64,000 nt of DNA, taken from positions 6,922,501 to 6,986,500 of the forward strand of contig NZ_CP094516.1 of NCBI RefSeq assembly GCF_029909975.1, written 5' to 3'. The notes under the pieces were generated by a model. The model was given only the letters and a program-made list of their open reading frames with translations, made no database searches and was not told the origin of the DNA. The translations under genes were made by a program, and so were the position numbers. The number at the start of each line of letters is the position of its first letter. Positions within the stretch are counted from its first letter, which is position 1. Origin of the DNA: Bradyrhizobium sp. ISRA430. Its GTDB lineage: Bacteria; Pseudomonadota; Alphaproteobacteria; Rhizobiales; Xanthobacteraceae. Below, piece after piece: positions 56,454-64,000 of the stretch.

Positions 56454-56506
56454 ACATGGTCTATCCAGACGGGCTGCACATTCGCGACTTTTATCGGAGA
56501 CGAAGC

Positions 56507-58747
56507 ATGACAGGCATTGGCCGAGCCGGCGCATCGGAAGTTGGGGCCGCAGGAGCTGGCAATACCGGAGATGTGAGCGGTTCGAGCGTGGAGCCCAGCC
56601 TGTTCCCGGGAGGACGCAGTCAATCTTTCGATGTCATCATCGAGCGGATGCGCTCTGGGCCTCAAGACAGGACCGCGGCGCTTGACAACTCAAGTTCGGA
56701 GGTGGCAGCGCCCACCCGAGACGAGATAAAGGCAGCAAGGCGAAAAATGGGCGGCCTGTTTGAGGAGCTTGAAGCTAGCCGTCGAGCGGCCCCGCACGCC
56801 CAGACCTTCCAAGAGGCGCAAGAGCTGATCGATCAAGTCGTCAAAGCAGGCTCAACAGTTCTGGAGTACTACGCGGATTTGCCTGCCAATTTGGCGCGTC
56901 GCATTCTGCCCGACGATCGGGCTCGCCGGCTCCGCGATGACACGCTGAACGCGGCCGAAGAATGTAACGCAGTGGCCACCCGGATTATTTACGAGCTGGA
57001 GGACAAAAGAAAGGAAGCATTAGGCTGGCTCCCGAAGATCCAAGACACCGGTACGCCCGCCCAGGTGGCCGGCGCGTTTAAAAGCGTGGCGAAACGCTAT
57101 GCAGCCTGCATGGAATGGTGGGGGAAGAAGGTGTTGCGCTCGGAGCGGATGCAGTCTGTCTGCGCGGCTACTGCCAACTTGCCAAGCAGCACGCCCGAGA
57201 TGCGCAAGGCCGAAGAGGCCGCACTAAGACTGCATACCGGCTGGGCTCTCAATACGAAGTGCATGTATCTGCAAGCGCGGATCGCTCTCGCGGAGCTCTT
57301 GATTGACTCGCGAGCGAGCACGCTCGACCCAGACGTGCGCGATGCCTTGATGGAGGAGAGCGGGCGGGCGCGTCTGCTCGGGACCTTCGTCGAGGATGTT
57401 TTTCCGGCATTCGTCTCCACGTGCGACGCCGTTCTGTACCGCGATGGAGCAGTGCTTGACGCGGAGCATCGCGCCGTTCTGGAAGGAGTCATGGAGCGGC
57501 TTTCGGAATTTGCATCCGGGCTGAGCGGCATCGTTGCCAGCCTGAGGCAGATCGGAACGGGAGCTGAAGTTCCCCTGCAGTTGCTAGACGAGATCGTGGA
57601 AGGGGCGTGGGTGACCGCGAACGAGGTTATGCGGCTGCTGGCATTGCAGCCAAGTACGCCAGCTACAATCGAACCGCCCGCTTGGGCCGTGCTGCCGGAA
57701 AATACTGCCGGGGTGAGCCAAGGCACTCCAGGTCGCAGAAAAGGAAAAGGAAAAGAGAAAGGAAGGCGCGCAGCGGCTGCCGGCGAGGGGAGTTCAACGG
57801 CCAGCTCATCCGAGTCGCAACGGCCCGATGGCGCTACGGCCCCGGCGCGCAAGGTTATCGTGCGCTCAGATCTCGGTACCAAGAAGCTCGCTACCACCGA
57901 GGAAGCACGTGCCTCATCCGCTGCAACCGATCACCTCCAGATGTGGCAGGCGCCGCCGTCCAAGGAAGCTTTGGCGGGATTACTTGAGCGATTGGACAAG
58001 CTGCTGCAGTTCGATCTGCCGGCTCAGCAGAGGGCGGTCTCGCAGACGCGCCAGATGAAGCCCGAGGACGCCGAACACGTCTTGGATCGGGTTATCACGC
58101 ACTTGCAGACGCAGGCCGCCGAGATTGAGGCCTGTGTGGCCGCGCTGCAGGAGCCTCGCCGACGTGGCTTGCTCACGCCTTCGCAACTTCCCGAAGTGCA
58201 CGATAAAATAGTCCGGCTCAACGGGATGGGGTCCGAGCTGCAGGGGCAGGCAAAATCATTGAAAGCGCGGAAGGCAGCGATCACGAGCGATTGCATGAAG
58301 ACCTACCCGTTTCCTTCGCAAGAGTATCTCGAGCAGTTGCGCGCGGCGGGGGAACTGGAGTCAGTGGGTCCACCGCAAGCGTTGAAGGGAGAGCCAGGTA
58401 AGCTATTCGAGATCAAGCTGCAGCCCAAGGCGCTTGGCAGCGGCGCAATGCCAAGGCCGATGTGGGTGCACATCCATACCGAGCGGCCGGTTTATGCTTG
58501 GCAATTGGCAACGTTGGGCGATCGCGCATTCGCCGCATGCCACGTGAAGTCCGACGAACAGCGCGGATACAATCAGCATTGGCAGAACGCTCGAGCCGCC
58601 GAGGGCCACGAGAACGTCGTGATCCACCGCGGCAAGCTGACGCCTGCGTTCTGTAGGTCCTTGTTGAGCACCGCCGCTGGCCAGCCGTGGCAGCCCCTTC
58701 CCGATCCCGGGCACGTTTCAGCGCACATGGCTCGACTGGGGATCTAG
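56507..58747 (+). CDS. Large putative type III effector, unknown family
   Basis: The frame opens at 56456; ATG 56507 after CGGAGACGA gives a Gly/Ser/Ala-rich N-terminus (TGIGRAGASEVGAAGAGNTGD), the usual look of a type III secretion signal. The 746-residue protein is largely helical, with possible coiled coils near 70-130 and 500-600. A basic cluster GRRKGKGKEKGRR near residue 409 could be a nuclear localisation signal. A globular C-terminal domain has PMWVHIHTERPVYAWQLATLGDRAFAACHVKSDEQRGYNQ-like strands and helix. I recognise no enzyme motif. A degenerate tts box precedes it. Secretion in plant cells is plausible but inferred. Confidence 0.6.
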   Translation: MTGIGRAGASEVGAAGAGNTGDVSGSSVEPSLFPGGRSQSFDVIIERMRSGPQDRTAALDNSSSEVAAPTRDEIKAARRKMGGLFEELEASRRAAPHAQTFQEAQELIDQVVKAGSTVLEYYADLPANLARRILPDDRARRLRDDTLNAAEECNAVATRIIYELEDKRKEALGWLPKIQDTGTPAQVAGAFKSVAKRYAACMEWWGKKVLRSERMQSVCAATANLPSSTPEMRKAEEAALRLHTGWALNTKCMYLQARIALAELLIDSRASTLDPDVRDALMEESGRARLLGTFVEDVFPAFVSTCDAVLYRDGAVLDAEHRAVLEGVMERLSEFASGLSGIVASLRQIGTGAEVPLQLLDEIVEGAWVTANEVMRLLALQPSTPATIEPPAWAVLPENTAGVSQGTPGRRKGKGKEKGRRAAAAGEGSSTASSSESQRPDGATAPARKVIVRSDLGTKKLATTEEARASSAATDHLQMWQAPPSKEALAGLLERLDKLLQFDLPAQQRAVSQTRQMKPEDAEHVLDRVITHLQTQAAEIEACVAALQEPRRRGLLTPSQLPEVHDKIVRLNGMGSELQGQAKSLKARKAAITSDCMKTYPFPSQEYLEQLRAAGELESVGPPQALKGEPGKLFEIKLQPKALGSGAMPRPMWVHIHTERPVYAWQLATLGDRAFAACHVKSDEQRGYNQHWQNARAAEGHENVVIHRGKLTPAFCRSLLSTAAGQPWQPLPDPGHVSAHMARLGI

Positions 58748-59962: not shown

Positions 59963-60009
59963 ATCCATTCCCTAGATAGATCTGATCAAGAAAATCAATT
60001 TTACCGCTT
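59963..60009 (+). promoter_or_regulatory. nod box (NodD binding site)
   Basis: The 47 bases align without gaps with the rhizobial nod-box consensus. ATCCAT is at the start, GAT follows at the right spacing (59975), ATC at 59985-59987 gives the second half-site, and AATCAATTTTACC at 59993-60005 matches AATCRATTTTACC. Mismatches are a few bases in the middle and the last AATC, which is GCTT. It points right, and the first frame downstream is the small secreted peptide 60 bases away. Confidence 0.85.
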
Positions 60010-60069
60010 ACAGCGTCCTCATATAGACGCGAGGAGGGTTGGGGCCAACCTAGGGAAGCGATTTCTCGG

Positions 60070-60276
60070 ATGAAAACGTCTGTGTTAGTGACAGCGAGCG
60101 CCCTCGCGCTTGCAACGGCGGCGGTGCCTCCTTTTGCCGCAACAGTTGCCGCGCAACCGGTCGCCGCCAGGGTGCATTTGGCCGATACTTCGTATCCTCA
60201 GTGCGCGGACGACCCGTTGGATGGTATCTGCGACCTGTTTTTTTGTTTGACCGATCCCTCGTGCGTGCGACACTGA
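60070..60276 (+). CDS. Small secreted four-cysteine peptide, nod-box-controlled
   Basis: 68 residues: MKTS, a hydrophobic core (VLVTASALALATAAVPPFAATVAA) ending in a signal-peptidase type AxA site near residue 28, then a mature part of about 40 residues with four cysteines (CADDPLDGICDLFFCLTDPSC). The mature part is acidic, and the cysteines could form two disulphides in the periplasm or outside. It is the only gene directly downstream of the nod box, so flavonoid/NodD induction is likely. The gene is too small to place in a family by eye. The ribosome site (GGGAAG) is rather far, 13 bases, from the ATG. Confidence 0.65.
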   Translation: MKTSVLVTASALALATAAVPPFAATVAAQPVAARVHLADTSYPQCADDPLDGICDLFFCLTDPSCVRH

Positions 60277-60639
60277 GAACGGAAAACAACTCAAGCAGAG
60301 AATGAGGATCGAGCCTCGTGCGGCCGCTTGCTCCAACAGCGGCCGCGCCCTCATGCCGTACAGTTACAATGGCAGATGGTGCAGGCAGCGCCATCTTATT
60401 CAAAGTGATCGCTCACTTTCAGCCAGTCGGTGGCTACCGCGCAACCGCCGCATCGGCGAAGGTTGGGTAGACGGGAAAAGCCGGCTTAGAGCGCCACGCT
60501 GTGTTCCGCTGCGAGCCCGTGCTCGATCCAAAACTGATCAAATCATAAGCATCTATTGCTTTTCCATGCCGCGCACATGGCTCTTCGGTTCGATGGTTCG
60601 CATTTCGGACGTCATGGATGTCCATTCTTCCCGCTATGC
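60277..60639. other. Intergenic region after the peptide gene
   Basis: No gene supported. GCGGCCGC occurs twice at 60320-60327 and 60339-60346, each self-complementary and able to pair with the other over an 11-base loop. This may act as the end of the peptide transcript, though no T-run follows. Confidence 0.4.
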
Positions 60640-61986
60640 CTAGGGTAGCCGTCGTGGCGTCAGGAAGGATCGTTTTTGGTTGGGTCTAAAATTCAGTGGC
60701 GCCGTCTCCGGCATCATGAGCATGGCAAAGAGCCCGGCCGCGCTCGCGAAAAGCATGTACCATGCGGGCACGAGTGCGCTCCCGGTAAGGTGGATCAGCC
60801 AGGTGACGATTGGTTGAGCTGTGCCTCCGAAAATCGCTATCGCAAAAGCGTAAATCGTCGCGAAGGCGCCACCACGAATGTTTCTGGGCAAACCTTCGGC
60901 CATGCTCACGTAGAAGGCGCTATACGGAATCGTTCCGATCAGGGTGAGGGCGCCGAGACCTCCTAGAAGTGCGAAGGCACTGCGGCTCTCTGCAATCCAC
61001 AAGAATACCGGATAGGTCATCAGCAATGCAGTAACCTGCGGCCATATCATGATGCGACGACGGCCTGCGCGGTCGGCGAGCAGGCCGCCCAGCGGTGCTG
61101 CAGCAATTCCGACCGCATTGCTGATGAGCGTGGTACCAAAGGCGACCGGCGCGGAAACGTGGAGAGTGTTCATCGCGTAGGTGGTCATATATCCGGTAAC
61201 ATAAGTAGTGATCGTGCAGCTGGCCAAGATGACAAATCCCAAGCACATGATGCGGCGATCGGCACGCGATTGGCCTCCAGGCTCGGAGACCAGAACAGGC
61301 GCCTCGGGCCGGTGCAACGTTTCGGGCAGGACGCTCCGCAACCAAAGTCCAAACGGCAACGTAGCGGCGCCGAGCAACAGCGCGATCCGCCATCCGTACG
61401 CATTTAGAGCTTCGCTTGTCATGGTGAGCGACAGTATTTCTCCAACCAACGCTCCGGCCGTCGCAGCTATCTGTTGGCTCGCGGGCTGAAAAGAGACAGC
61501 AAGACCGCGCGCGTCAGCGGGGGCCGCTTCCATCAAGTAGGCGGTCGTCGGACCCACTTCACCTCCGAGAGCAAAGCCTTGCAGCAAGCGTGCAAACACG
61601 ACCAGCGACGGAGCGGCAAGTCCTATTGTCTCATACGATGGCGTGATAGCTAACAATAGGACCGCGGCACTCATCATGGTGAAGCTGGCGGTCATCGCGG
61701 GGCGTCGGCCGGCCCGATCCGAATACGAGCCGAGCACGATGGCCCCGAGCGGTCTGGTCACAAAACCTGCGCCGAAGGTTGCGAGTGACAGCATCAGGCT
61801 AGCGAACGAGTCGGTTGCCGGGAAGAACGCCTGACCGATCTGTATCGCGAAAAAGCTGTAGGTCCCGAAGTCGTAGAATTCGAGAATATTGCCGATGGTT
61901 GCGCCCAACACGGCGCGGCTCGTCAAGCGTTCGTCTGCGGGATCGAGGACCGGCTCCAGCCTCTCTCGAGTAGATTGCCTCGACAT
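60640..61986 (-). CDS. MFS transporter, metabolite:H+ symporter group
   Basis: 448 residues with twelve membrane segments. The start (GATIGNILEFYDFGTYSFFA) and the GSYSDRAGRRPAM loop between helices 2 and 3 are typical of the MHS family (ProP, ShiA, CitA), as is RLLQGFALGGEVGPTTAYLMEAAP with its conserved GGE. A second DRAGRRR loop lies near residue 300. These carriers take up organic acids, osmolytes or shikimate with protons; the substrate is not predictable here. It is convergent with the peptide gene and shows no obvious regulator site. Confidence 0.92.
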   Translation of the reverse strand: MSRQSTRERLEPVLDPADERLTSRAVLGATIGNILEFYDFGTYSFFAIQIGQAFFPATDSFASLMLSLATFGAGFVTRPLGAIVLGSYSDRAGRRPAMTASFTMMSAAVLLLAITPSYETIGLAAPSLVVFARLLQGFALGGEVGPTTAYLMEAAPADARGLAVSFQPASQQIAATAGALVGEILSLTMTSEALNAYGWRIALLLGAATLPFGLWLRSVLPETLHRPEAPVLVSEPGGQSRADRRIMCLGFVILASCTITTYVTGYMTTYAMNTLHVSAPVAFGTTLISNAVGIAAAPLGGLLADRAGRRRIMIWPQVTALLMTYPVFLWIAESRSAFALLGGLGALTLIGTIPYSAFYVSMAEGLPRNIRGGAFATIYAFAIAIFGGTAQPIVTWLIHLTGSALVPAWYMLFASAAGLFAMLMMPETAPLNFRPNQKRSFLTPRRLP

Positions 61987-63486: not shown

Positions 63487-64000
63487 ATGGATCCGAACCC
63501 GATCAACAATGCCCGTTCACCAGAATCACCAACGGCGCACGTCTGGACACAGGAAGATCATGATTTGTTCAGTCAGATCATGAATGAAGCTGGACCATCA
63601 TCATCTGCTGCACCTGAGGAAGCGGTAGATGTCTCATTCGCCGCTCCCCAGAGATTTTCACACGGTTCGCAAATCGCGCCTGACTTCATGGTCGAAAGGC
63701 TGTTCCACCAGGGTCTCTTGCCGGACTCGGACCAGCCGACGATGACCTATGAAATCCGAGGTCACCGCTACACGGCCGGTTTGGATGGGTCCAATCGCGT
63801 TCTTCTTTTTCATAACCCTGCGGAGGACCAAGTGGTTGGGGCCGGCCGGGCGGGGCTACCGGAATTCGGAGCTTTCTGGACGGAGCACCGGCGCTTCGGA
63901 ACGCCGCTACCACAGCAATGGGCCACACCTGCCCTGATGGACAAGCTGCGCGAAGAAGGTTTCATGCCGACCGAAAATAACCCGACAACAATCCAGCTTA
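63487..64000 (+). CDS. Putative type III effector, 3' end outside window
   Basis: ATG 63487 follows AGAAAGGAGAGC and the frame stays open to the end (171 codons seen). The N-terminus is polar and Ser/Pro-rich (DPNPINNARSPESPTA), as in type III effectors. At 63674-63820 lies one copy of the shared module (ERLFHQGLLPDSDQPTMTY...HRYTAGL), and a second begins at about 63923 (KLREEGFMPTENNPTT). A clear tts box upstream makes this the best-supported type III substrate in the window. The catalytic domain, if any, lies beyond the edge. Confidence 0.75.
   Translation, partial: MDPNPINNARSPESPTAHVWTQEDHDLFSQIMNEAGPSSSAAPEEAVDVSFAAPQRFSHGSQIAPDFMVERLFHQGLLPDSDQPTMTYEIRGHRYTAGLDGSNRVLLFHNPAEDQVVGAGRAGLPEFGAFWTEHRRFGTPLPQQWATPALMDKLREEGFMPTENNPTTIQL

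Follow-up and report, generated by a model that had tools for sequence, protein, structure and literature searches.

Which gene does the nod box at positions 59963 to 60009 of this DNA control, and where does the product of that gene go? The stretch analysed, here called the window, is 64,000 nucleotides from Bradyrhizobium sp. ISRA430 (contig NZ_CP094516.1, positions 6,922,501 to 6,986,500). Downstream of the box is an open reading frame (ORF) for a 68-residue, exported-looking peptide with four cysteines. We consider it likely that this ORF belongs, as a one-gene unit, to the nod regulon of Bradyrhizobium and that its product is exported by the Sec pathway; release from the cell is a separate step and is weighed separately below. 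Membership of the nod regulon is suggested by the box, by its conservation, and by a review's statement on the gene bsr1863 of strain USDA110. The features of the locus are:

59963 to 60009, plus strand: nod box, 47 bp; the first ATC-N9-GAT element is intact and the conserved TTTTACC end points at the ORF.
60019 to 60026, plus strand: TCATATAG, candidate -10 element, 13 nt past TTTTACC; its function is presumed.
60052 to 60058, plus strand: AGGGAAG, candidate ribosome-binding site, read from the sequence and largely kept in relatives.
60070 to 60276, plus strand: gene for the 68-residue, exported-looking four-cysteine peptide, an almost certain orthologue of USDA110 bsr1863; recognised from the ORF, its homologues and their selection.
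60070 to 60153, plus strand: predicted Sec signal peptide, residues 1 to 28, cleaved after VAA; it has a positively charged start, a hydrophobic stretch and a conserved A-x-A/QP junction.
60154 to 60273, plus strand: predicted mature peptide with a C-x8-C-x4-C-x5-C core; the four cysteines are invariant in 20 aligned sequences.
60320 to 60346, plus strand: GC-rich hairpin about 45 nt past the stop codon, a possible transcript end.

The box is real and beyond chance. It agrees with a generic 47-bp consensus at 32 of 39 specified positions; the runner-up in the window reaches 24, and 60 first-order Markov random windows reach 26 at most. The initial annotation called it near-consensus, which is a fair description: the top boxes in ten nodA-hit loci from ten genomes score slightly higher, 33 to 38 under the same scoring. 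The distance from box to ATG is 60 nt here and 53 to 63 nt across 48 non-redundant leaders of the window peptide's own class (class I, as opposed to a second class described below). In 21 of these 48 leaders TCATATAG stands 13 nt past TTTTACC, most of the others having near variants or one-base shifts, and TTGGATAG stands 13 nt past the box in 5 of 9 nod-operon promoters compared. These comparisons indicate that the promoter is conserved as one unit.

The product likewise bears out the initial description of a 68-residue precursor with a signal peptide, four cysteines and a mature part of about 40 residues: the leader looks exported, its A-x-A/QP junction predicts a mature part of 40 residues, and Sec export is the predicted fate. 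All four cysteines lie within the final 24 residues, and the block CDLFFCL is invariant in the same 20 sequences, all intact. The predicted mature peptide is acidic (charge about -4 at pH 7, isoelectric point about 4.4), as are class I peptides generally (mostly about -4 to -9, isoelectric points about 4.1 to 4.4). Among 39 distinct homologous coding sequences the ratio of nonsynonymous to synonymous change (omega) averages about 0.25 over the whole gene; by part it is about 0.28 in the leader, 0.43 in the linker and 0.10 in the cysteine core, where the nonsynonymous and synonymous proportions (pN and pS) are 0.066 and 0.439; these are pairwise averages over sequences pre-filtered for an intact core, a filter that lowers the core estimate. 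The values indicate that the core is under purifying selection and, because homologous coding sequences show selection, that the ORF is a real coding gene. Searches of Pfam, NCBIfam and PDB sequences returned no usable relative.

Is the gene tied to symbiosis, as the initial annotation implied? The peptide and nodA were searched for in 265 Bradyrhizobium genomes, with a family match defined at E ≤1e-10, and nod boxes, TtsI and class II in 257 genomes. Family matches occur in 61 of the 265, and 60 of these 61 are nodA-positive. Setting aside four genomes with class II only (G073, G074, G079 and G199) leaves 57 class I carriers. All 57 are nodA-positive, against 82 of the 208 other genomes (Fisher p 1e-19, ignoring kinship). 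Loci were examined in 63 genomes, 56 of them class I carriers; the class I gene is intact in 51 of these 56, and a nod box lies within 200 nt in 50 of the 51. Among named genome contigs at least 25 loci were found, those listed all being from Bradyrhizobium, with B. frederickii, B. vignae, B. yuanmingense, B. lablabi, B. ivorense and B. glycinis represented. A sample of 397 genomes of the order, which includes Bradyrhizobium itself and is not enriched for rhizobia, gave no match outside Bradyrhizobium at E 1e-6, and tblastn against 72,556 plasmid records gave none at E 0.1.

The initial annotation presented the peptide as a new kind of nod-box output. This was overstated, since the gene and its regulation are very probably on record already in USDA110, as a protein of unknown function. 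Genome G027, taken here as USDA110, carries the peptide gene at 2017070 to 2017276 (plus strand) with its box at 2016963. A TtsI-like response regulator lies 20 kb away at 1996847 to 1997536 (minus strand) with a secretin-like ORF beside it; in view of that neighbour, we take it to be TtsI (bll1843). Two papers place the rhc genes, including ttsI, at bll1800 to bll1843 (PMC3927601) and the USDA110 symbiosis island at 1.68 to 2.36 Mb (PMC4070704). Within the island, at the place expected for bsr1863, G027 has a small plus-strand gene preceded by a nod box. A review states, in a passage about genistein-induced genes, that a nod box precedes bsr1863 of USDA110, a "hypothetical protein of unknown function", and that this gene is controlled by NodW and NwsB. 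The same passage names the three other nod-box targets of USDA110 as two nod/nol operons and ttsI; G027 has four boxes at ≤2 mismatches, equal in number to the four targets. Position, strand, reckoned gene numbering and box count together lead us to take bsr1863 as the orthologue of the window gene; this is almost certain, the identification being by genome position. With its fourth target unexplained, this much-studied regulon has a clear gap. What appears new here, from comparison of sequences, is a conserved, exported-looking, acidic four-cysteine family, its selection, its spread, and a second class without nod boxes. The open-access text searched yielded no description of a secreted cysteine peptide controlled by a nod box.

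Several observations weigh against the regulon-and-export reading. The structure models are of too low confidence to be used (mean predicted local distance difference test score, pLDDT, 50.6 for the precursor and 60.5 for the predicted mature part), and the name TtsI in G027 is a tentative one, given by position. The sole intact gene lacking a box within 200 nt is that of G043, whose box carries deletions. Six of the 57 carriers have nothing but broken class I copies: in five of them (G038, G083, G107, G189 and G195) the box is still present, with scores of 26 to 34, and in the sixth, G015, box and gene are about 0.9 kb apart. In 82 of the 139 nodA-positive genomes the search at E 1e-10 gave no class I match, which, together with the broken-only carriers, indicates that nodulation does not generally depend on class I. 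The broken copies also speak for a relic, with a box for an RNA or a former gene and an ORF in decay; so do further broken copies that accompany intact ones in G130 and G201. Yet frame disruption with the box kept, which the initial annotation had named as a sign against a functional peptide, does occur but is confined to this minority. The high proportion of intact genes, the low omega of the core (calculated from intact sequences only) and the maintenance of start, box spacing and frame make a relic highly improbable.

If the gene is indeed a regulon member with an exported product, flavonoid-activated NodD1 would act at the nod box, alongside the NodW/NwsB branch reported in USDA110. Transcription would start at the -10-like element past the box, would cover one gene and may end near the hairpin at 60320 to 60346. 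Across 24 chosen sequences this hairpin has six consensus pairs, of which one is changed on both sides, and the covariation term is unfavourable (+0.14); it lacks a T run, and terminator prediction made no call there. Sec would export the 68-residue product, a cut after VAA would leave the acidic peptide of about 40 residues, and oxidation in the periplasm would presumably give a small peptide with two disulphides. The least certain step is release, by which the peptide would reach the root interface and act early in symbiosis instead of serving in the periplasm alone; we put it a little below an even chance. Conservation and an exported look make the peptide a candidate early symbiosis signal. 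In the broadest form of this idea it would join Nod factors and type III effectors as a third early signal, a flavonoid-controlled, secreted, disulphide-bonded acidic peptide read by legume roots, with a second class under its own promoter; as a whole this is rather unlikely.

The second class bears on the question of release. Class II proteins, assigned by eye, are small, share the class I leader, have a different core (mostly C-x9-C-x4-C) and have no nod box:

L062:5375 (plus strand) and L065 to L076 (for example L073:1067, plus strand): class II paralogues with the shared leader and a changed cysteine core.

Several family copies each are present in G106 and G195. Class II genes share an upstream motif of their own, CCTRACGTWRCGTNAGNTTTGC, palindromic around CCTGACGTARCGTNAG. 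The motif was derived from class II genes themselves and was sought in 17 genomes, of which 15 had been picked because they carry the class. All of its 17 matches fall within the 15 carriers, compared with 2 matches for the reversed control pattern in the 17 genomes, and none in G000 (the 8.56-Mb genome surveyed for nod boxes below) or G027, which lack class II. By position, 16 of the 17 matches precede a class II gene or a class-II-like hit by 61 to 85 nt; in G054, G075 and G213 the downstream hit is known from a search match. The remaining match, G123:C135:114097-114118 (L138), has no recognised class II gene downstream and is about 15 kb from nodA. Leaders resembling that of the peptide are also seen on larger proteins. 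Leader-only matches to proteins of 250 to 280 residues occur in many genomes, and the ORF L102:2664-3500 (minus strand), near nodA, has such a leader; its product is presumably outer-membrane beta-barrel-like.

The gene neighbourhood was compared across 26 loci, some of them cut by contig ends, and apart from frames overlapping the peptide itself no neighbour is common to all 26. The adjoining genes of the window are:

56456 to 58747: effector-like ORF; in 17 of the 26 loci a relative of it precedes the peptide.
60640 to 61986, minus strand: gene of the MFS/sugar-transporter family, in convergent orientation to the peptide gene; relatives adjoin the peptide in 12 of the 26 loci.

The ORFs at 56456 to 58747 and 63487 to 63999 have no Pfam match, and their type III effector look is an impression.

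The main rival explanation keeps the same regulation and Sec export and holds that the peptide never leaves the cell, acting as a small periplasmic or envelope protein, for instance by helping to export Nod factors or by adapting the cell to root surroundings. The only export signal visible is a Sec leader, the core is constrained and not diversifying, as would fit a conserved bacterial partner, and the varying neighbourhoods include no conserved adjoining exporter. Class II, in contrast, keeps the leader with a very different cysteine core, a pattern closer to that of related exported ligands than to a single helper, and the many nodA-positive genomes without a class I match also sit poorly with a helper. 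A periplasmic role has a substantial chance, short of probable. The paralogues with a common leader and changed core, small, exported-looking and cysteine-rich, would equally suit a bacteriocin-like peptide induced by flavonoids in the rhizosphere and directed at competing rhizobia. However, the peptide is acidic, the 26 loci have no immunity- or export-type neighbour in common, and the class I core is almost invariant between strains; we regard this explanation as improbable.

The tie of the peptide to the type III secretion system appears loose. A TtsI-like hit below E 1e-90 is present in 55 of the 57 class I genomes, and the median distance between peptide and TtsI is 25 kb in the 38 tabulated genomes with both on one contig. 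G106 and G195 have no TtsI-like hit though family genes are present, and the association between class I and TtsI among nodA-positive genomes searched for both is marginal (p 0.04, again ignoring kinship). The marks of a type III effector are the lack of a Sec leader, an upstream tts box and dependence on that secretion system; what the peptide gene shows is a Sec-like leader and a nod box.

Nod boxes were also searched for throughout the 8.56-Mb genome (G000) with a relaxed pattern allowing ≤3 mismatches. Five sites were found, against none for the reversed pattern used as control. They include:

7417534, plus strand: nod box of the nod operon.
7410896, minus strand: nod box beside nolA- and nodD2-like ORFs, which would fit nolYZ.
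6897861, minus strand: nod box with a TtsI-like gene 1.5 kb downstream (TtsI-like hit at 6895650 to 6896333).
G000:C1:6790275-6790316 (L114), minus strand: nod box upstream of an ORF that seems to resemble a C4-dicarboxylate transporter.

TTCCATC-type boxes like that at 6790275 are present in the box lists of other genomes too. By this pattern nod boxes are scarce in a Bradyrhizobium genome, with five here at ≤3 mismatches and four in G027 at ≤2.

The initial annotation noted a superficial likeness to plant defensins and to nodule-specific cysteine-rich (NCR) peptides of legumes, which do have a signal peptide, a short mature part and several cysteines, as the peptide has; the likeness fails on cysteine spacing, charge and profile searches. 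Membership of either group is not supported: the peptide is bacterial and acidic, and its C-x8-C-x4-C-x5-C core departs from the NCR and defensin spacings. No Pfam profile matched at the curated cut-off and none in NCBIfam, and the one PDB hit had E 1.3. Antimicrobial NCR and defensin peptides are typically cationic, so the acidity of the peptide makes antimicrobial action of that kind unlikely. Plant RALF-type hormones resemble it in having four cysteines with a final C-x5-C, and differ in inner cysteine spacing; the peptide has no Pfam match. The gene bsr1863 of Bradyrhizobium diazoefficiens/japonicum USDA110 is like the window gene in being preceded by a nod box within the symbiosis island and is reported to be under NodW and NwsB control; the review passage makes no mention of export, four cysteines or a family. 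The nod operon, nolYZ and ttsI share with the peptide gene the architecture and direction of the box, and the nod-operon promoters counted above share the distance to a -10-like element. Their products are Nod-factor enzymes, transporters or regulators, whereas that of the peptide gene is an exported-looking small peptide.
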